Below are positions 6,891-63,911 of a stretch of DNA of 64,000 nucleotides, one piece after another. This stretch comes from Cafeteria roenbergensis (taxonomy: Eukaryota; Sar; Bigyra; Bicosoecida; Cafeteriaceae). Each line of letters opens with the position of its first letter. Position 1 is the stretch's first letter. Made by a program: the position numbers and the translations under genes. The stretch spans positions 310,001-374,000 of the forward strand of contig VLTN01000024.1 in NCBI GenBank assembly GCA_008330645.1. Direction: 5' to 3'. The notes under the pieces were generated by a model that saw nothing but the letters and a program-made list of their open reading frames with translations, ran no database searches and had not been told where the DNA came from.

Positions 6891-9800
6891 CTACGACGAG
6901 TGGGGGGCCGCCGGGCGGAGTGCGGATTCCTGCGTGTCGGTTCCACCCGGCTGCAGGGTGGGCTTGCTTGATGGCACGGCCTGTCCGGCTGCAGCGCTCG
7001 CGGGAAGGCCGGGGGGGCTCGCGTAGCCTCCCGCGGGGGCAGAGCCGTCGGCGGTGGCACTGGTCGCAGCGAACGGCCCGCCGTACGCCGCACTGGTCGG
7101 GGCGCCGTAGGGGGCGCCGTACGCCGCACTGGTCGGGGCGCCGTAGGGGGCGCCGTACGCCGCACTGGTCGGGGCGCCGTAGGGGGCGCCGTACGCCGCA
7201 CTGGTCGAAGCGCCGTAGGGGGCGCCGTACGCCGCACTGGTCGGGGCGCCGTAGGGGGCGCCGTACGCCGCACTGGTCGAAGCGCCGTAGGGGGCGCCGT
7301 ACGCCGCACTGGTCGAAGCGCCGAAGGGGGCGCCGTACACCGCACTGGTCGGGGCGCCGTAGGGGGCGCCGTACGCCCATCCTGGAGGGGGGGCGGCAAA
7401 GGGCACGCTGGACGGCGCGCTGAGAGCGAACGGCGGGGAGCCGCTCTCCGAATTTGCAGCCGGGTGCCACCCAGGCAGCGGTTGCTGGTGGCTGGAGGTG
7501 GCGTGACCGACATCGCCATGGGGCGCGCGACCCGCAGAGCTGGGGAGCAGCCCGGGTGGGCGCTCGGGGATCGGGACGCCGCTGGAAGGCGCTGCGGCTG
7601 CGTCGGCGGGAGCGGGCGGCACAGATCGCTGTGCGCCGGTGCCTCCGAGGCCCAGCAAGCCTGACGCTTGGGCGTCGAAGAGAGAGCTGGTCCGGCCCAG
7701 GTACCCGATGCCAAGCGGCCCTGCTGCCGCCTCCGCAAGCAGGAGGTCGCCATCGTCGTCATCGTCGTCCTCCTCCCCGTTAGCGCCTCCCCCCGCGCCA
7801 CCACCCAGACGAGCGTTGGTTGCAGGCGAGGCACGGCCCGAGCCCGCTCCTCCTGTGATCGCGCCAGCGGGTGCGCTTGAATCCTCTTCAAGAGCTTCGC
7901 TGCCGGGCTGCTGGCCAACTTCGCGCCTGCTGTCGCTGCCGAGGCCAAGAGCAGCTGGCCAGTCGTCCCACCCGTCGCCAATGCCACCGAAGCCTTCCTC
8001 GTCGTCCTGGTCGTCGTCCTCAGCAAGGCCGTGGCCCACGGCCAGGATGCCGCCTTCCTCGCCGCCCTCCGTCCCGCCCAGTCCCTCCCCGTCGAGCGAG
8101 CGCAGCTGGTCCATCAATGAGCGCTCTTGCTCCTGGCGGCCGGGCACATCGGCCTGGGCGGCGCTGTCGTGAACCGCCCAGGGCTGCCCGAAGACGCCTG
8201 CGCCCTGCTCACCGTACGACAGCAAGAACGCGTCGAGAGCCGGAGCCATGCTGGAGGAAACCGCCCCCCACCCGTCATCGTGGGCCAGCGGCGCATTAGC
8301 AAGGGGCGCGGAAGCTGCTGCTGCTGCCGCTGCTTCAGAAGGGGCTGCCGTCGGCGCCAGGGCAGCAGACAAATCTGCCGGTCCGGATGTCGCCCGAAGC
8401 GACGGCCACGCCGCGGGTTCGGCTGAGACGGCAGCGGCGGGCCCCGGGCCGAATGTTTCGCCAGGCAGGATGCTGGCGACGTCCACGACTGCTGCAGGCC
8501 TGGCGGGGAAGGGCGCGGCGGCGGCAGGAGCTGGCTCGACCGCTGCAGGCCTGCCCGGTGGCTCACTGCCGACGCCAGTGCTGCCCCCAGCCCCGCCCAC
8601 GGGGGGCTGCTGCGGCGCCGACGGGGCGGGCAACTCCCAGCCGCGCCGCGGTTCTGCGGGGGTCGGCGGAGGTGGCGCTGGGTCCGATGCCCGAACGAAT
8701 CTGGCCGATGAAGAGGCAGCGAGCTGCGACGCGTCCCGCGAGCCAAAGGGATAGGCAGTGACGAGGACGCGGTCGTCGGGCACGGCGCAGTGCGACGACT
8801 CTGAGCGGCAGGGGTCGGTCAGACTTGCCGCGTGCGACCGCCACGTGTACGGGTCGAACCGCTCAAGCTCCACGGCTCCTTCGGGGCCGGCGGTGGCGGT
8901 GGCGAGCGCGTCGGCACGGACCAGACGCAGGCGAGCGGCCAGCCAGCGCAGCACGCTTCGGCGGGCAGGCGGCGCCGTGGCGGCGAGGTAGCGGCGCGGG
9001 GGAGAAGCCCGGACGAGGTCAGCCCCGTCCACCACAGCCCTGAACACGCACGCGCGCTCCGTGCTGCCCGGCGGCACGCTCCAGATTGCGGCGCCGACGA
9101 CAGGGAGCGCCTTGGTGAGGCCCCGCGCGGCCGCCGTGTTCTGCGACGAGAGGCAGACGATGAGCGAGGCGCCGCCCGCAAGCACGGCCGCGGCAACGGC
9201 CTCCAGCTCTTGCTTGTCCCAGCGGGCGAGGATGCTGTCGCCGTCGACGACCACGCGTCGGGGTGGGCTCTCCGACCGCGCGCTGCCGGTGTGGCCGGCC
9301 TCGCTGCCGTCGGACAGCGGCTTGGAGGGCCGCCGACGGGACGCGAACCCGAGCTCCCCCGGGCCCATGGCGATGATCACGCCGCCCCCAACGCCTGCGG
9401 CACGGGAGCCGGGCCCGGAGGCCACGCCGGCCACTGCGCTGGCACGCTCAGCCTTGTCCGCCGCATCGCAGCCGCCGTCCGACCGGCGGTCGCCGTCGCT
9501 GGCCGCGCTAGCAGCGCTGCGGCGAACCTCCTCGTCGCAAAGGCTGCGCTCCTCGCCCTCCCCGTCGTCAGCCTCGGCCCCGTCTCCCTCGTCGTCCTCC
9601 TCCTCGGCGCGCAGTGCGTCCGCATCGTCGTCCTCCACCCACCCGCCCTCCCCAAGCGCCGGGTCGGGCTCGTCGTCGTCGCCTCCGTCGTCGTCCTCGT
9701 CGTTGAAGTACCCCGACTTTTCCAGGCTGTCTGCCAGCTGCTCGGCCGTGACAACCTCCCCGGTCGCGGGGTCCAGAGCCAGCGCAGGCGGCGCTGCTTG

Positions 9801-19700: not shown

Positions 19701-22700
19701 GCGTGCAAGGTTGGGCAGATGCCGCGCTGTGGTCGCTGACAGCGTCTGCTCTGGCTATCGCGTCGGCAGAGCGACGCCGCTTGGCCGAGGCGCGCGCCGC
19801 CCTGCTCCAGTACGCCATCCTGGCCGGCGGGGCTGTGCCTGTGGGCGCTGCACCGGACGGGGCCGAGGCACTGCACGCGTGTGCGATTCTGCGCCTGGCA
19901 GGCACGGCAGGCCTGTCCTCGCTGGCAGACGCGCTCGAGTCCGGGTCCACTGCAGCGGAGGCGGCTGAGGCGGACGCCGCTGGCGGTGGCGCCGCGGGCA
20001 AGAAGAAGGCCGCTGCGGCCAAGGACAAGGCCGCGGCCGCCAAGAAGAAGGGCGCTGCCTCTGGAAAGGACAAGAAGAAGGGCAAGGGGGGAGCTGGCGG
20101 CGGCCAGGAGGGCGAGGACGACGAGGACGACGAGGACGAGGCCGTGGCCAGTGCGGAGGTCGGAGTCCCCGTCGCTGCAGACTTTGCCTGGCGAGTCGGG
20201 CACCTGGCTCCGCCCGTGGTGCTGCCGCAGCCGGTCTCTTGCCTCTTGGCCGCGCCTTCGGCAGAGGACAGCGCCGCACCGGAGGCCGGAGCGCCGGACG
20301 CCCAAGGTGCCGTGCAGGCAATGGTGTCCGCCTGCGGGGAGGACGAGTCGCAGCTTGAGGCAGATGTGCAGGGGCGGGGTGCGGCGCGCGTCGAGGCTGC
20401 TGCGGCAGCGTCTTTGGCGCTTGCCGTGGGTGCGCTGGTTCGCGACGCGGTGGGCTCGCTCCTGCCGTTCGAGGTGCCCGCCGCGGCTCCTGTGCCTGGC
20501 CCTGCAGTGTCCGCGCGCCAGCTCGGCGGAGGGAGTGCCGTGGCAGAGGACGCGGAGGAGCCCGCTTCCCGGTCCGTGGCCTGGGGCGTTGCCTCTGCGG
20601 CCATGGCGGAGGCTGAGGCCTTCGCTGCTGCTGTCGTGTGGGACAGCGGTCGCCTTCGGCGCGCGAGGGCGCGCGTGGGCCGCGCCCTCGTCAAGGCAGA
20701 GAAGCGACGGACTGCCGCTGCTGCGGCGGCCAGAGCAGCTGTGGCTCACGTCGAGGCCGAGGCCCAGGCGGAGCTTGACGCGGCCGCTGCGGCGCTGGCC
20801 GAGGCGCAAGCAGGAGGCGGAAAGGACAAGAAGAAGGGCGGAGCTGCCTCCAAGAAGGACAAGAAGCAGGCAGCTGCGTCTGGCGTCGAGCTTCCCGACA
20901 TGGCTGAGGTGCTGCTGCCGCTCTCGAGCGTGCTGCCCGTCCCGCCCGTGCCCGCAGCCGCCGCACTGGCAGCAGGCCTCTCAGTTGGGGAGCAAGAGCT
21001 TGCCTCTCTGGCAGGGCTTGACCCCGTTGAGCTGGGTCGGGCGATTGTTTCGGGCCGCGCGGCTGCTCAGCTTCGCGCCGAGGCGAGGATCCCGGACTCG
21101 GTCCTCAGCGCGCTGGAGGCCGAGGCGCGCCACTCGGCAGGCAGGCTCCGCGTTCTTCGCCGGGCTCTCGGGCGCGCGGCGGAGCGCATCGCGTCCTTGG
21201 CCGTGCAAAACACTCAGCAAGCTGTCGCGACAGCCGAGGCCCGCCTGAGGGGGGAGCTTTCGGCCATTGAGTCCGCACGAATCGAGCTGCGCCGCGACGT
21301 GCAGCTGGGCCGCGCACCTGTGGCGCCCTTGCGGGTGCAGTCCAGGCTGGCACGCTCGGAGGAGCTGCTCCTTCCCCAGACAGGGGCAGGGGCCAGCGCG
21401 CTCAAGTCTGGCGGCGGCTCGGGCCTGGCTGCTGTGGCCACGCCAGCCACGCGGGATGCGGTTGTGGTTGAGCTCAAGCAGCTGCGCAGCTGCAAGCAGG
21501 TGTCCGTGCTGGCCGAAGCTGGTGTTGCAAGGGAGGCGCCCGGCACGGACGGCCTCACGCCCTCTGGCTTTGGCGTTCTGGTCTCTGCGCTGAGAGCAGT
21601 GGCGGAGCACTCGGGCAACCCAGCCCTGATGCTGCCCGCGGCAGCGGCGGGAGACAAGCAGTTGGAGGCGGCGGCGGCATGGAACGCTGTGTTTGAGGAT
21701 GCCGTGCCCCCGGAGAGGGTCTGCTTTGGCCCGGACGGCGCACCGCTCGCGGAGGCGTCACTCGACACGGCTGAGTGCGAGCCGGCAACAGCCAGCGTGG
21801 CAGACGCCGCGGCAGGGAGCACCGGCGACGCCGGTGCCCGCGAGGAGGCAGTGGATGCGCAAGGCAGCGGGCTGCAGGCAGACGGGGCGATGGTGCCTGT
21901 CGTGCCTGCCGGGGCCTGGGCGCCCGAGACCGAGGTGGTCGCGACCCTGTTCCGGCTGGCAGGGGCGGGCAAGCTTGGAGCCCGCTGGAGGGAAGCTGCG
22001 CGTGGAGGCGCACTCGGTGCCCCGCTGTTGCAGTGGGTCACACAGCACCGCGTGCGGCCGGACGAGTGGCCGGCGGCTGCCGTGCAGCAGGCCGCCCGCG
22101 GTCAGCCGCACTGGGTGGACTGGCGTCGCCTGTGCACCGCTGCGCTCTTCTCTGCCCCCACGGAAGCAGCAGCGGCTGGTGCGCGCGACGCGTCTCAGCC
22201 TGCTGCCGCTGCTGCTGCTGCACCCGATGCGGCCGTGGCCGCGAGGCCCCGAGTTGCCGCGTCTGGGGCAGTGCTCTCGGTCGTACCGTCGGCTGGCGAG
22301 GTCGCCGAATTTGCCGAGAGGCTTGCGGATGCATGCGGCGTGGTCGCGGCGGGGCTTGACGGTGCCGTAGAGCACCCGCAGCATTGCGACGCCTTCTGCG
22401 GACCCGAGGCCGCTTGCGCTGGTGTGCGGCCGTGGTTCGAGGGGCATGGTTTGCGAGCACTTGCGAGCGCTGAGTCAGCGGGCGCGGCTGCAGAGGCGCG
22501 CCTTCTGCAACGGATCGCTGACTTGGGAGCGGTTGCGGCTTGCGAGACCCCGCCTCCCGAGCTCGCAGACTCGGAACCGCGGCTGACGGACGGCCTTGGC
22601 GGCTGGCACCATCTCCCAACCCCTCACCCAGTGCTTTCCGCTGCTTCTGCCGCGGCGGGTGCTCGCGTGAAGGGCATGCGGCTGCAGGCTGCAGCCGACC

Positions 22701-27546: not shown

Positions 27547-28673
27547 ATGGCCGCAGCCCCCGCGCCCCTGCCCATGGCCGGCGTCTACACCGCCCTGGTG
27601 ACGCCATTCAACGCGGACGAGTCCGTCGCGTGGGGCGAGTACGAGGCCCTCCTCGCGCTGCAGCTCGAGGCCGGAGTCGATGGCGTCGTCATCTGCGGCT
27701 CCACCGCCGAGCCTGCGACGCTCACCTCGGACGAGAAGAAGGAGCTCATCTCCCGCGCGATCAAGCTGTGCGCGGGCAAGTGCCAGGTCATCGCCGGCAC
27801 CGGCTCGAACAACACGGCCGCGACGGTGGAGTTCACGCGCTGGGCCAAGGGAGCGGGCGCGGACGCTTGCCTCGTGGTGAACCCGTACTACAACAAGCCG
27901 CAGCAGGCCGGGCTCGTCCGGCACGTGAAGGCGGTGGCGGCGGTGGGGCTGCCCATCGTCTTGTACAACAACCCAATTCGCTCCGCTTGCCTGATGGAGA
28001 CGCCGACCGTCCTCGAGTGAGCCAGCGTGCACTGCACGGGGGCGGTAGTCGTTGCCAGCTGGCGAGGCAGGGCCCAGCGGGGGCGGGGGCGACGGGCGCA
28101 GCGTGCAGCGCTGCGACCCTGCGCGCCTGTTCTCGCCTGCAGGTCGCAAGCAGGAGTCCGTGCGCGACGCGTCGCGCCCCGCCATTCCCGGCCGCCCATT
28201 GACCTGCGTATCTACCCGTTTTGTGTTCGACGTGTGGGGTCTCATGCAGGCTGGCAGCCCTCCCAGAGGTTGTCGCCGTCAAGGACTCGACGGGCGGCCT
28301 GGACATTGTGAGCGCGGTTGCCGCCAGCGGCGCGTTGCCAGTGTTGTCCGGCGGGGATGCGCTCGCAGTTCCCACCATAGCACTGGGCGGAGCAGGGCTC
28401 ATGAGCGTTGCGTCAAACATCGTGCCCAAGCGCGTTGTGGCGATGGTGCGGGCTGCCCTGGCGGGCGACTTTGCCGGTGCTCGCGCCGAGCACTATGCGC
28501 TGCTCCCGCTCTTCAAGGCGCTCACGGCAGAGATCAACCCAGTGCCGGCCAAGTACGCGCTCCAGCGAATGGGCCTAATCTCGAGCGCCTGCGTGCGCGC
28601 GCCGCTGGCGGAGCTGGGGGAGGCGAGCAGGCCAGTTGTTGAGGCCGCGTGCGCTGCGGCAGGCGCGCTGTGA
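27547..28673 (+). CDS. dapA: Dihydrodipicolinate synthase family protein, copy 1 (altered active-site motifs)
   Basis: Class I aldolase of the DHDPS/N-acetylneuraminate lyase family; DHDPS condenses pyruvate with aspartate semialdehyde in diaminopimelate-route lysine synthesis. Exon 1 is 27547-28016 and exon 2 is 28250-28673, with a 233-bp intron (GTGAGC...CAG) joined as VLE|LAALPEVVAVK; 297 residues. The Tyr motif NPYYNKPQQAGL and the Schiff-base Lys in VAVKDSTGG are present. However, two active-site loops depart from family consensus: GSTAEPAT in place of GTTGES-like, and NNPIR in place of NVPGR. Both loops are canonical in copy 2. The start ATG is followed by the same peptide as copy 2, with no clear targeting peptide. 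Copy 1 may have a changed substrate or reduced activity. It is a tandem duplicate; copy 2 starts 204 bp downstream. Confidence 0.9.
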
Positions 28674-28854
28674 TGGCTGGACGCATGCGGGCTCTTGTCG
28701 TCTGCGCGTGCGTGCACAGCCGTGGGCTCCTCGCACTGCACGGGGAGGAGTGCGCTTGGGGAAGGAGCGGCGCGGCGACAAGGCGGGGAGTTGCCGCCTC
28801 TGCCACCCGAAGTCGAGCAGAATCGAGTGACCCGCGCAAGGACGCGTCCCGTGG

Positions 28855-28867
28855 CACACACACACAC
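28855..28867. repeat. (CA)n microsatellite
   Basis: A short CA run ten bases upstream of the start codon of dihydrodipicolinate synthase copy 2, so it lies in the 5' untranslated region or core promoter. Copy 1 lacks it at the matching place. Confidence 0.85.
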
Positions 28868-28877
28868 TCCAGCCAGC

Positions 28878-30023
28878 ATGGCCGCAGCCCCTGCGCCCCT
28901 GCCCATGGCCGGCGTCTACACCGCCCTGGTGACGCCATTCAACGCGGACGAGTCCGTCGCGTGGGGCGAGTACGAGGCCCTCCTCGCGCTGCAGCTCGAG
29001 GCCGGCATCGATGGCGTCGTCATCTGCGGCACCACTGCGGAGTCCCCGACGCTCACCTCGGACGAGAAGAAGGAGCTCATCTCCCGCGCGATCAAGCTGT
29101 GCGCGGGCAAGTGCCAGGTCATCGCCGGCACCGGCTCGAACAACACGGCCGCGACGGTGGAGTTCACGCGCTGGGCCAAGGGAGCGGGCGCGGACGCTTG
29201 CCTCGTGGTGAACCCGTACTACAACAAGCCGCAGCAGGCCGGGCTCGTCCGACACGTGAAGGCGGTGGCGGCGGTGGGGCTGCCCATCATGCTTTACAAC
29301 ATTCCCGGCCGCTCCGCTTGCCTGATGGAGACGCCGACCGTCCTCGAGTGAGCCAGATTCGAGCCGCGCGCGTGCCTGTCGCCAGCGCCCTCCCACCTGC
29401 GGCCGCGCGCCTCGGCCGCCCAGTACCCCGCGGGCCCGGCTGCGAGCACCGCTGCCAGCCTTGCCCGAGCGAGCCGGGGGGTGGGGAGCGCGTCTTGCCT
29501 GTATCGCGCCGATTGCAAGAACTGTCGCGCCGGGCCGGCCCTGCGGTTGCCGTCACCAGCTCCGTGCCCAAATCCGGCCGACCGCCGCGATCCCCGCAGG
29601 CTTGCCAAGCTCCCTGAGGTGGTTGCTATCAAGGACGCGACGGGCGGTCTGGACATTGCGTCAGCAGTGGCCAGCGTGGGCGCGCTGCCGGTGCTCTCGG
29701 GCGACGACCCGCTCACCTTGCCGATGATGGCGGTGGGTGGAGCTGGCGTCGTCAGCGTGGCCTCCAACATCGTGCCCAAGCGCGTCGTTGCAATGGTGCG
29801 CGCTGCCCAGGCGGGCGACTTTGCTGCCGCCCGCGCCGAGCACTTCGCGCTGCTGCCTCTGCTCAAGGGCTTGTTCGCCGAGACGAACCCGGTGCCGGCC
29901 AAGTACGCGCTCCAGCGAATGGGCCTCATCTCGAGCGCCTGCGTGCGCGCGCCGCTGGCGGAGCTGGGGGAGGCGAGCAAGCCCGTTGTTGAGGCCGCGT
30001 GCACGGCAGTGGGACTCTTCTAG
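28878..30023 (+). CDS. dapA: Dihydrodipicolinate synthase, copy 2 (canonical)
   Basis: Same family and length as copy 1 (297 residues). Exon 1 is 28878-29347 and exon 2 is 29600-30023; the 252-bp intron sits at the identical phase-2 position (GA|G). Here the active-site motifs match the family: GTTAESPT (Thr-Thr pair), NPYYNKPQQAGL (catalytic Tyr), YNIPGR (Arg that binds the semialdehyde carboxylate) and Lys in VAIKDATGG. It is therefore the better candidate for true DHDPS, using aspartate semialdehyde made by the dehydrogenase at 51038-52348. Exon 1 differs from copy 1 at only about 20 of 470 bases, while the introns and the front of exon 2 are clearly diverged. It is convergent with GID8. 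Confidence 0.93.
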
Positions 30024-59972: not shown

Positions 59973-62900
59973 TCAGCGGCGCCGCGCGTCCGGCCTTGCT
60001 CCAGCCAAGGCGGCGGCGTTGAAGACGTCGCTCGGCTGGCCCTTGCTGCCCGCGTCGCCGGCCGAAGCCGCGGCAGCGCCCGTGTGGGTGGCCGAGCGGG
60101 GAGGCGGGGCGCCTGGGACTGACCCGGGCGTGACTGCCGAGGGCAGGGAGGCGGGCAGGGTCAGCTGGCCCATGCCCATGCCAGTGGACACGGCCTTGCT
60201 GGACAGCGCGACGGCGCTGGCAGCGGCAGCGGCAGCGGCTGCCGCAGGGTCGCTTGCGCCGCTGCCGGGGGGCAGGCTGGCCGCCCGCTGGAGGAACTCG
60301 GCAGTGGAGGGAGGGCGCTGCTGGCTCGCCGGCAGCGCGGGCGGAACCCCGCCTGCAATGGCGCCACCGCCGTGCTGGGCCGCCTGAGGGCCGCACGCAG
60401 CTGCGGCTGCGGCGGCGGCGGCGGCCGCGGCCGCGGTGTGGCTCTGAGGGAAGTGCACGGGCATCTGGAGGCCGAACTGAGGCGTGGCCGGCAGCTGCGC
60501 AAAACCGTGCTGCTGGGCCACAAGGTGCCCGGCTGCAGCGGCGGCGGCGGCCATGGCAGTGGCGACCTCAGTCGGCACGGCCACGCCGGCGGCAGTCACA
60601 ACCAGGCCCGGGGGCGGCGCGACGTGGGGGATCGGCGGCGGCGGCAGCGTCGCCGCGGCCGGCGCCACTGCAGCCGCCGGCCCGGGGGGCAGGGGGGGAG
60701 CCGGCTGGATGAGGGCGTTGTACGCAACCTCATCCGCTGTGCGGTCGCGGCTGTCCGGGTTGGCTGCCACGAAGCGCTCAATCAGAACCTCGGGGTGGCC
60801 CTCCGGAAGGGACCCGCCGCGGCGGACGAACTCCAGCATCGAGCCGCCGGTGGTGCGCGTCTGCGCGCCAGCAGGGCCGGCCTTGGCGCCGGCCGCCGTG
60901 CCCGTGCCCGCGGTGGCTGCCTCCACCTCCTCCTCTGGCGTGCGGGAGAAGTGCACCGCCGTGTAGGGCTCCGGGGCCGAGCGGTCGATGCAGTCGCGGA
61001 GGGCGATGGGCGCCTTGCGGCCGGACACGTACTGGCCCCACATCTCCGCGTACATTGCCTCGAGGTTGCGGGTCCAGCGGGCCGTGTCGAAGGCTGGCAG
61101 CGAGTCGCGAGCCGCCTCGAGGCGGGCGCGGAGCGCGGCTCGACGCGGCCTGTCCAGCGCGAGCGACACGGCCACCTCCTCGTACTGGGCGAGCGAGGGC
61201 GCGATGCACTCGCGGAGGCCGGCCGCGTTGAGCAGCGAGGCGGCCACGCGGCAGGCCATCTTCTCGCCCGGCACGGTAACCACGGGCACGCCGCTCCAGA
61301 GGATGTCGCAGGCGGTGGTGTGGGCGTTGCACATGGGCGTGTCGAGGAAGATGTCGGCCAGCCGGCCGCGGCTGATGTGCTCGTCCTTGGGGGCCACGTC
61401 TGTGAAGACGAGCCGGTCGTCGGTCAGCCCGAGCGCCCTGGCGGCGCGGCGCACGTGCTGCTCCCCCGCGGGCGGGAAGCGCAACAGCCAGAGGACCGAC
61501 CCCGGCACGCGGTGCAGGATGCGGGCCCAGGCTGCAAACGTGACTGGGTCGATCTTGTAGAGCTGGTTGAAGTTTGCGAACACCACGCCGCCCTCTGGCA
61601 GCCCGTACTTGGCGCGAGGCGGGGCCGTGGCGGGGTCCAGCACAAAGCGTGAGCTCTGCTTGTGGTCGTTGACGAAGTATGAGTGCGGCATGTAGGCGAG
61701 CGTCTCCGTGTAGTGGTGCGCGAGGGAGGGCGGGGCGACGGTCTGGTCCACGACGAAGTAGTCCATGCAGTCTGCGCCCATGGTGCCGCAGAAGCCCATG
61801 TACGACACCTGCACGGGTGCGGGGCGGAGGGCGAAGATCTCGTTGCGGGCGCCCTTGGTGTAACCGTTGAGGTTGATGAGGACGTGGATGCGGCGGGAGT
61901 TAATGAGCCTGGCGCAGTCGGCGAAGTTGAGGGGAGTGAGGTCCTCCACGTGCTCCACCTCCCGCTCGATCTTGGCCCGCCACGCGGACCCGTCGTTGGG
62001 GCTCAGCGCGAAGCAGAAGACCTCGAACCGGGACTTGTCGTGCATGCCAAAGACGGACTGCATCAGGTGCGACAGCGGGTGGTTGCCGAAGTCGGACGAC
62101 ACGTAGCCCACCCGCAGGCGCTCCCCCGGGTTGAGCGAGGGCATGGCGAAACAGGGGAGGCTGGCCGCGCGGGCGGTGAGGGTGGCGCGCGCAGCGTAGC
62201 AGCGCGCGAGCTCCTGCATCTCGCGGATGTCCAGCGGGTAGACGAGCGAGTGGAAGGGCTGGACGGAGGGGAGCAAGTGCCCGGGGATGACACCGTTGGC
62301 GCCGGGGCGGACCGGCCCAACCACGGTGCCGGGGGGCAGACGCATGGAGGCCACGGCCACGTCGCCAGGCGGGGTGGGGCCGCGCGCGGAGGCCCTGAGC
62401 GCGTGCGACGGGTCCCACGACGGGGTGGTCCCTGGCACGGGGGCGTCGGCGTGCGCCGGGAGCGATGCCCTGAGCTGCTGGTGGAGGACGTTGAAGAGGC
62501 CGTGCAGCAGGCGCGTGCGCTGGCGCCAGTCGCAGACGATGAACAGCGAGTGAACCAGGTTGCTGTACGCGTCGGGGAAGTTGGGCTTGAGCTGCAGCGC
62601 GCGCCGGTAGCAAACGATGGCCTCCTCCACGCGGCCGCAGTCCTTGAACGCAGAGGCGAGGTTGCTGAGGGCGTCGCCGTGCGCCGGGCGCAGGCGGATC
62701 GCCATAGCGTAGCACTTGATCGCGTCGCCCAGCCTGCCGACGTCCTTGTATGCGTTGCCCATGTTGCTGTACGCGTCGGCGAAGGAGGGGTCGGCGCGGA
62801 TGGCCGCGTGGTAGTGGGCCACGGCCGCGTCGAGCTTGCCCTGCTCCTTGAGGATGGAGGCGAGGTTGGAGTGCGCGGCGGCGAAGGAGGGCATCAGGCG

Positions 62901-63911
62901 GCACGCCGTCATGTAGCAGTGGATGGCCTCTTTGACGAGGCCCTTGTCCTTGAGCGAGTTCCCGAGGTTGTTGTACGCGTGGGCGTGGTCCGGCTTGAGG
63001 TCGAGCGCGGTGCGGTAGCAGCGCACCGACTCCTCCACCATGCCGAGCTCGCGGTACGCGTTGCCGAGGTTGTTGTAGGCGTCAGGGAAGTTGGGCTCCA
63101 GCCGGATGGCCAGCGCGTACTCGTCCACGGCGCGGCGCATGTCGCCCTCGTCGTAGAAGCACGAGGCGAGGTTCCCGTGGGCGATGGCGAAGCTCGGCCG
63201 GAGGCGGATCGCCTCGTTGTAGGCGGCCTTGGCGTCCCCCAGCCGCCCTGCCTCCTTCAGCGCGTTGCCCATGTTGCTCCACGCGTCGGCAAACGAGGGG
63301 TCTAGCCTGACTGCCTCCTGGTAGGCGCTGATCGCTCCCGGCACGTCGCCCGTCTCCTTCACGAGGCCGGCGAGGTTCGACCACGCGATGGCGAAGCCGG
63401 GCCGCAGGCGGATGGACTCCAGGTAGCACGCCTTGGCCTCCGCCATCTGGCCGCGCTGCTTGAGCAAGTTCCCGAGGTTGCAGTGCGCGTCGTGCAACCC
63501 TGGGTTGATGCTGATGGCGGTCTGGTACGCGTGAATCGCCGCGGGGGTCTGCCCCAGCTGCGCATACGCCGCTGCAAGGTTGTTGTACGCGTCGCAAAAC
63601 CGCGGCTTGAGCGCAATGGCCTGCGAGCGGAGCGGGAAAGGAGCCGGAGCGGGCCAGCGAGACGGTCGCTCGTGAGCCGTTCCGAACGGCCCCAGACGCC
63701 CGGGCAAGCTCAGGACGCGGCGCAGCCTTGGCTTGAGCGCTGCGCACGCAGGGCCGAGTGGTCACCCGCACATCCAAACAACTGGCGCGCAGCAAGCAGG
63801 CAGGACGGCGCGGAACTGTGGCAGCACGCTCGCGCACCTTGTTGTAGAAGTGGACGGCGCCGTCCAGGTCGCCAAGCTCCTTCAGGGCGTTGCCCAAGTT
63901 GCCGTACGCCT
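59973..63911 (-). CDS. OGT: O-GlcNAc transferase (OGT/SEC), 5' end beyond the window
   Basis: Nucleocytoplasmic GT41 enzyme that attaches GlcNAc from UDP-GlcNAc to Ser/Thr. Two exons are in the window: 63911-63838 and 63620-59973, with a 217-bp intron (donor GTGCGC). The upstream exon encodes AEAYGNLGNALKELGDLDGA, a TPR unit, and continues in phase into AIALKPRFCDAYNNLA; earlier exons lie outside. About eleven TPRs run to roughly 62560. The catalytic part has LRVGYVSSDFGNHPLSHLMQ (base-position His), LINLNGYTKGARNEIFALRPAP, GLPEGGVVFANFNQLYKIDP, VLWLLRFPP and VAPKDEHISRGRLADIFLDT with the key Lys. HTTACDILWSGVPVVT closes the UDP site. The intervening domain of animal OGT is absent, as in plants. 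The last 280 residues are an Ala/Pro/Gly/Gln-rich tail not present in animal OGT. Confidence 0.95.

Follow-up and report, generated by a model that had tools for sequence, protein, structure and literature searches.

The window analysed here, a stretch of 64,000 bases (C24:310001-374000) with a GC content of 70.6%, comes from an assembly of Cafeteria roenbergensis that comprises 167 contigs and totals 36,303,456 bases; PMC6972860 describes this species as a diploid protist for which no sexual cycle is known. Two dapA-type genes lie head to tail on its forward strand, each with one GT-AG intron and an intact frame encoding 297 amino acids. The upstream gene, copy A, extends from its ATG at 27547 to the end of its stop codon at 28673 and consists of exon 1 (27547..28016), an intron of 233 bp (28017..28249) and exon 2 (28250..28673). 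The downstream gene, copy B, is spaced 1331 bp from copy A on the same contig and extends from its ATG at 28878 to the end of its stop codon at 30023, with exon 1 at 28878..29347, an intron of 252 bp at 29348..29599 and exon 2 at 29600..30023. The splice sites of both copies were set by the open frame and not by transcripts. Once spliced, the exons also match the DapA model. A wrong frame of copy B exon 1 (28880-29350) is likewise open, over 157 codons; in this GC-rich genome, an open frame by itself is therefore weak evidence for a gene.

Both proteins score above the equivalog cut-off of 206.15 bits of TIGR00674 (DapA; dihydrodipicolinate synthase, DHDPS), copy A with 287.6 bits and copy B with 310.2 bits, and they have 263 of 297 residues in common. 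At the DNA level, searching the 36.3-Mb assembly with exon 1 of copy A recovered just two matches, namely copies A and B themselves. Self-comparison of 164 kb of the contig (the window plus 100 kb) gave 10 matches, two of which belong to the dapA pair, the only coding tandem pair recognised; the others look like tandem or dispersed repeats. Repeats within the window include a tandem array at 7057-7422 whose unit is roughly 70 bases long (offsets between self-matches of about 69, 141 and 213), a dispersed repeat of about 185 bp at 19952-20136 that is 99% and 94% identical to sequences at C24:264489 and C24:267825, respectively, and degenerate direct repeats at 62557-63490, about 66% identical and found at offsets of 306 and 510 bases.

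Mosaic similarity and silent divergence of the two copies

The coding sequences of copies A and B form a mosaic that is real and well defined, and the preliminary description of this pattern was correct to the base. It had counted about 20 differences between the two first exons of 470 bp, about 18 of them in two windows; exactly 20 of the 470 positions differ, with 8 differences in 27675-27715 and 10 in 27958-27978. The roughly 200 bp between the windows, described as nearly identical, contain 205 bp (27716-27920) that are wholly identical. The two differences outside the windows, at 27561 and 27921, are both silent.

In order along exon 1, a homogenised tract with 1 difference in 128 bp (T1; A 27547..27674, B 28878-29005) is followed by diverged window 1 (A 27675..27715, B 29006-29046), where 8 of 41 bp differ and which encodes the pyruvate-binding loop (GSTAEPATL in copy A, GTTAESPTL in copy B). 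A second tract, with 1 difference in 242 bp (T2; A 27716..27957, B 29047-29288), leads to diverged window 2 (A 27958..27978, B 29289-29309), which differs at 10 of 21 bp and encodes the strand carrying the catalytic Tyr (VLYNNPIR versus MLYNIPGR). The third tract (T3; A 27979..28025, B 29310-29356) has no differences in its 38 bp of exon and 9 bp of intron. Identity begins at the ATG and ends 9 bases into the intron; only these first 9 intron bases are common to both copies, and the introns (233 versus 252 bp) and the sequences 5′ of the ATG show no clear alignment.

Consistent with the divergence previously noted for the introns and the first two thirds of exon 2, 77 of 292 bp differ in the first part of exon 2 (A 28250..28541, B 29600-29891), which encodes the segment that bears the Schiff-base Lys together with the remainder of the pocket. 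The near-identical end that had been reported for this exon corresponds to a fourth tract with 3 differences in 111 bp (T4; A 28542..28652, B 29892-30002), but does not extend to the last 21 bp, which had gone unmentioned: these seven codons, stop included, differ at 13 positions (A 28653..28673, B 30003-30023).

Clustering statistics were obtained by permutations in place of GENECONV. When 20 differences were placed randomly in 470 bp, 18 of them fell in two such windows in 0 of 20,000 trials (the best trial reached 14). An identical run of at least 205 bp arose by random placement in 2 of 20,000 trials for exon 1 and in 0 of 20,000 for the whole coding sequence. The longest run of codons capable of a silent change but free of one comprises 67 codons and was reached by 0 of 20,000 permutations.

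Synonymous divergence was calculated by segment (pS and dN/dS according to Nei-Gojobori), its uniformity having been named in advance as the outcome that would count against a mosaic. Instead, sharp borders at which pS drops from about 0.5 to roughly 0.02 recur several times along this one short gene. It amounts to 0.018 in the exon-1 tracts (2.0 of 108.4 sites), 0.48 in the two windows (8.5 of 17.7 sites), 0.53 in the first part of exon 2 (42.8 of 81.5 sites) and 0.066 in the exon-2 tract (2.0 of 30.3 sites). Because pS in the windows is like that of exon 2, the windows appear to be remains of an old divergence and not new changes, and the tracts to be younger overlays. Among fourfold sites whose codons agree in the first two bases, 4 of 111 differ in the tracts versus 36 of 63 outside. 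The dN/dS ratio is 0.23 in exon 2 and 0.30 in the windows.

Protein-altering changes are concentrated in the windows, as would suit a scenario in which exon 1 was first homogenised throughout and then gained positively selected substitutions in both windows. However, silent changes are found in the windows too. When the windows are delimited by protein changes only, silent changes occur in 4 of 14 silent-capable codons within them as against 3 of 130 elsewhere (p = 0.0017), and within exon 1 alone, 4 of 8 fourfold sites differ in the windows versus 2 of 87 in the tracts (p = 3e-4); scanning the 7 silent-only codons without such preset windows gave no significant clustering (4741 of 20,000). 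Given these silent changes and the resemblance of window pS to that of exon 2, fresh mutation in the windows is very improbable.

Constraint on silent sites, exerted by codon bias or an overlapping element, might also keep the tracts identical in place of conversion. Codon choice in the tracts is indeed narrow, with GC3 at 161 of 171 in either copy, compared with 96 of 126 (copy A) and 103 of 126 (copy B) outside (p = 1e-5 and 0.0012, respectively). Yet C and G are used almost equally at the fourfold third positions of the copy A tracts (49 and 52), and C-to-G or G-to-C swaps at fourfold sites number 0 of 99 in the tracts versus 8 of 33 outside (p = 7.5e-6). Silent-site constraint is accordingly the least probable of the explanations that we considered. 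By exon, the GC3 excess of the tracts has p values of 0.005 (copy A) and 0.05 (copy B) in exon 1, and of 0.24 and 0.19 in exon 2. When only identical third positions are counted, GC is found at 159 of 167 in the tracts versus 59 of 64 outside, and the excess is nearly gone; long-running GC-biased conversion, which such an excess would suit, is for this reason kept as a hint only.

The near-identity of the tracts might also have been introduced during assembly, if short-read polishing erased real differences or if haplotypes were mis-joined. The methods given in PMC6972860 state that the published C. roenbergensis assembly was polished by minimap2 and Racon, first using PacBio reads and afterwards Illumina reads, that the strains are diploid, and that alleles were collapsed by Redundans; moreover, a second copy of dapB on contig C127 indicates that redundancy persists in the assembly. 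Against this, the copies lie apart on one contig with distinct introns and distinct exon 2 parts, and therefore do not represent two alleles of a single gene. Short reads could, by our reasoning, erase sparse differences only, and not make a tract out of sequence diverged by about 26%, and exon 1 has only the two matching places in the assembly. A haplotype mis-join is not supported for these two distinct genes on one contig. The possibility that one copy is an assembly artefact, which the preliminary description had itself raised, is thereby weakened, and a polishing artefact is improbable.

Active-site residues of copies A and B

Both proteins were compared with homologues from 94 bacterial loci. 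These comprise four of the five first found (one, at 24% identity, was excluded) together with 90 from a search that gave matches in 193 of 194 genomes, ranked by likeness to copy A: the 30 that the search itself extracted and 60 that we picked further down its list. Copy B outscores copy A against all 94. Residue numbers are those of E. coli (Ec), assigned via alignment to the E. coli sequence.

Thr45, Tyr106, Tyr107, Tyr133, Arg138, Lys161 and Asn248 are kept in both copies. At a further eight positions, copy B has Thr44, Ser48, Pro49, Ile135, Gly137, Ala163, Asp187 and Phe244. The homologues are nearly uniform at these positions, with Thr44 and Ser48 in 94 of 94 each, Pro49 in 93, Val or Ile at 135 in 92, Gly137 in 89, Ala163 in 91, Asp187 in 92 and Phe244 in 87. 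Copy A has Ser44, Pro48, Ala49, Asn135, Ile137, Ser163, Gly187 and Thr244. Of these, Ser44 (in place of the Thr of the proton relay), Pro48, Asn135, Ile137, Gly187 and Thr244 each occur in none of the 94 homologues; Ser163 is also present in 3 of them, and Ala49 is the E. coli state too. Across columns with at least 80% consensus, copy A departs 11 times and copy B twice, both copies departing at one more (two-sided binomial p = 0.022). Copy B retains the family pocket, whereas copy A departs from it at near-invariant sites yet retains the catalytic residues. Copy B is the better candidate for the DapA step. For copy A, our best guess is an aldolase or synthase that uses pyruvate and whose pocket for the second substrate has changed.

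Neither copy has the G-X-X-G-E loop that, in the account given in PMC3188589, occurs in all DHDPS enzymes. Its second Gly (Ec46), which is Gly in 94 of 94 homologues, is replaced by Ala in both (GSTAE in copy A, GTTAE in copy B), and for this reason we call both copies DapA-type homologues, not proven DHDPS, the enzyme that condenses aspartate semialdehyde and pyruvate. Likewise, both have Asp in place of the Glu found at Ec162 in 94 of 94 homologues; this site lies within the unconverted part. In the unconverted part that includes Ec162, copies A and B agree at 75 of 97 residues, whereas the best other sequence reaches at most 55% with copy A and at most 59% with copy B. The copies thus appear to be each other's closest kin among the sampled, bacterial sequences.

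A simulation of neutral decay of copy A over half the divergence gave, for the 126 unconverted codons, a mean of 60 amino acid changes and a minimum of 39 in 5000 runs, and 17% of the runs were free of a stop codon. The number of amino acid differences between copies A and B in these codons is 33, as against the 60 expected neutrally on one branch alone. By this check, copy A would be no idle relic.

Two described enzymes share some of the states of copy A. The DHDPS of Candidatus Liberibacter solanacearum, for which PMC11201819 reports a changed stereochemistry, likewise has Asn at Ec135. By the residues given in that source, however, it has Ser249 replacing Asn248, which copy A retains, and copy A is unlike it also at Ec44, 48, 137, 163 and 187. 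Human 4-hydroxy-2-oxoglutarate aldolase, as described in PMC3188589, resembles copy A in having Ser at Ec44 and Ec163, but has Asn at Ec45 and Ec138, where copy A has Thr and Arg. Because copy A (Ser, Thr, Ser and Arg) agrees with only two of the four aldolase residues Ser77, Asn78, Ser198 and Asn173 (Ec44, 45, 163 and 138), we do not name it a 4-hydroxy-2-oxoglutarate aldolase.

Proposed gene conversion and selection, and comparable systems

We propose that a dapA-type gene was duplicated in tandem long ago and that the copies then diverged to about 50% of synonymous sites. Later, interlocus gene conversion between the neighbours would have acted in four scaffold-coding stretches, while the stretches coding for most of the active-site pocket would have escaped overwriting. 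The most likely reason is that copy A had evolved into a distinct enzyme with the same fold, and that overwritten variants were lost. We lean towards this account in full, with conversion and with selection sparing the pocket segments. Conversion in some form is highly probable, being well supported by the sharp pS borders and by the C–G swaps that are absent from the tracts and present outside them. The preliminary description had gone further and spoken of repeated conversion with the two windows excluded, or else of selection that keeps them apart; repetition and selection are plausible but unproved additions.

The ends of the tracts coincide with the ends of alignable sequence at the ATG and within the intron, as expected of homology-limited strand exchange. 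Conversion via a spliced cDNA seems less likely, given that the 9 shared intron bases lie past the exon and that the codons just after the junction differ. This argument is weak because five of the nine shared bases fit a donor consensus. We also searched the whole assembly for a third copy that could have donated the windows, using the copy A versions of window 2 (27 bases) and of a 33-base part of window 1 with at most 3 mismatches; each was found only in copy A, at a stringency by which a more diverged donor could be missed.

The role of selection was assessed with ten pocket sites (Ec44, 45, 107, 133, 135, 138, 161, 163, 186 and 248), which are named in PMC5109050, PMC3188589 and PMC11201819 and were compiled after the pattern was known. 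Eight of the ten lie outside the tracts, compared with 126 of 297 residues overall. This count was reached by 8 of 297 rotations of the pattern (the true one included) and by 13 of 297 when it was mirrored. Islands placed at random in exon 1 both touched a pocket site in 4.8% of draws, and took in at least 4 pocket sites in 1.6%.

Conversion without selection would account for the same mosaic if one or a few events with patchy repair had left arbitrary islands that lie at the pocket by chance. Residual divergence is alike across the tracts (1/128, 1/242, 0/38 and 3/111 bp), which fits one event or events of similar ages, and the 4.8% of draws is not rare enough to dismiss neutral islands. The rotations across the whole protein and the 1.6% of draws argue against them, as does the placement of the amino acid changes of the windows at family-invariant sites in one copy only. 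Overall, islands left by chance seem rather unlikely to us. It is likely, with modest support, that selection kept the pocket segments apart; with modest p-values and a post-hoc list of pocket sites, selection is favoured but not settled.

A mosaic of this kind is already known from human opsins and from GOT1 of Tigriopus, and the dapA-type pair is a new case. In the opsins, which are likewise adjacent duplicates, PMC3924837 describes a divergence peak at functionally decisive codons amid near-identical stretches. According to that description, however, the opsin introns are homogenised and exon 5 is diverged, whereas the Cafeteria pair has unalignable introns and a mosaic exon 1. For the Cafeteria pair, a functional difference that maps to the divergence peaks is predicted from conserved sites. 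GOT1p1 and GOT1p2 of Tigriopus californicus, as reported in PMC3728101, are also duplicated metabolic enzyme genes that form a mosaic of high and low divergence, with islands persisting despite conversion. In the GOT1Sd/Sr pair of the same report, conversion is largely confined to exons adjoining an unalignable intron, as it is here. The support for the GOT1 case comes from four populations and GENECONV (PMC3728101), that for the dapA-type pair from one genome and permutations. Our literature searches returned no work linking dihydrodipicolinate synthase with gene conversion, and none of apparent relevance on Cafeteria and gene conversion.

As a tentative extension of conversion with selection, it is possible that copy A has evolved from DapA into a novel pyruvate aldolase (or into a synthase whose substrate or product stereochemistry is altered), that repeated GC-biased conversion preserves the identity of its scaffold with the one in copy B, and that selection holds the pocket segments distinct. 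The unconverted map would then outline most of the specificity-determining pocket. If true, this 2.5-kb locus would be a compact natural experiment in which conversion and selection are opposed within a few dozen bases, and the spared segments would single out the residues by which two enzymes sharing a fold differ. Four strains have been published and allow a direct test of the idea.

Lysine control, pathway genes and distant relatives

Some lysine allosteric residues are lost in both copies, which have Lys at Ec56 and Ala at Ec84, and both are predicted to be lysine-insensitive; PMC5109050 ties Lys or Arg at position 56 to absent lysine inhibition. We considered copy A as a lysine-insensitive isoform in contrast to copy B and rejected this, since the copies agree at these two positions and in Ser53 (Ec), all in identical stretches.

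Among the other genes of lysine synthesis, dapB is present (248.6 bits), and a lysA-like gene scores 265.5 bits, below its cut-off of 297.9. An exon-wise, six-frame search of the assembly gave no match to DapF (TIGR00652, PF01678) or Ddh (TIGR01921), and the same type of search with one model of plant-type DapL gave weak matches only, none above the cut-off. By these matches, the DAP lysine pathway looks incomplete, with the dapA-type pair, dapB and the lysA-like gene only.

At the protein level, two other weak matches to the dapA-type genes were found in the assembly, at C10:376297-376854 (33%) and C6:112276-112713 (27%); both belong to the same aldolase superfamily and are distant. The former scores best as an N-acetylneuraminate lyase, with 79.9 bits, far below the cut-off of 281. 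One weak relative on viral contigs, 35% identical over 64 residues, was left out of the analysis. The dapB gene occurs twice, intact at C73:15041-15823 and in two frames at C127:22547-23300, near the end of a 23-kb contig. The larger C127 piece is identical to the C73 protein at 132 of 133 residues, and C127 is probably a leftover allele contig.
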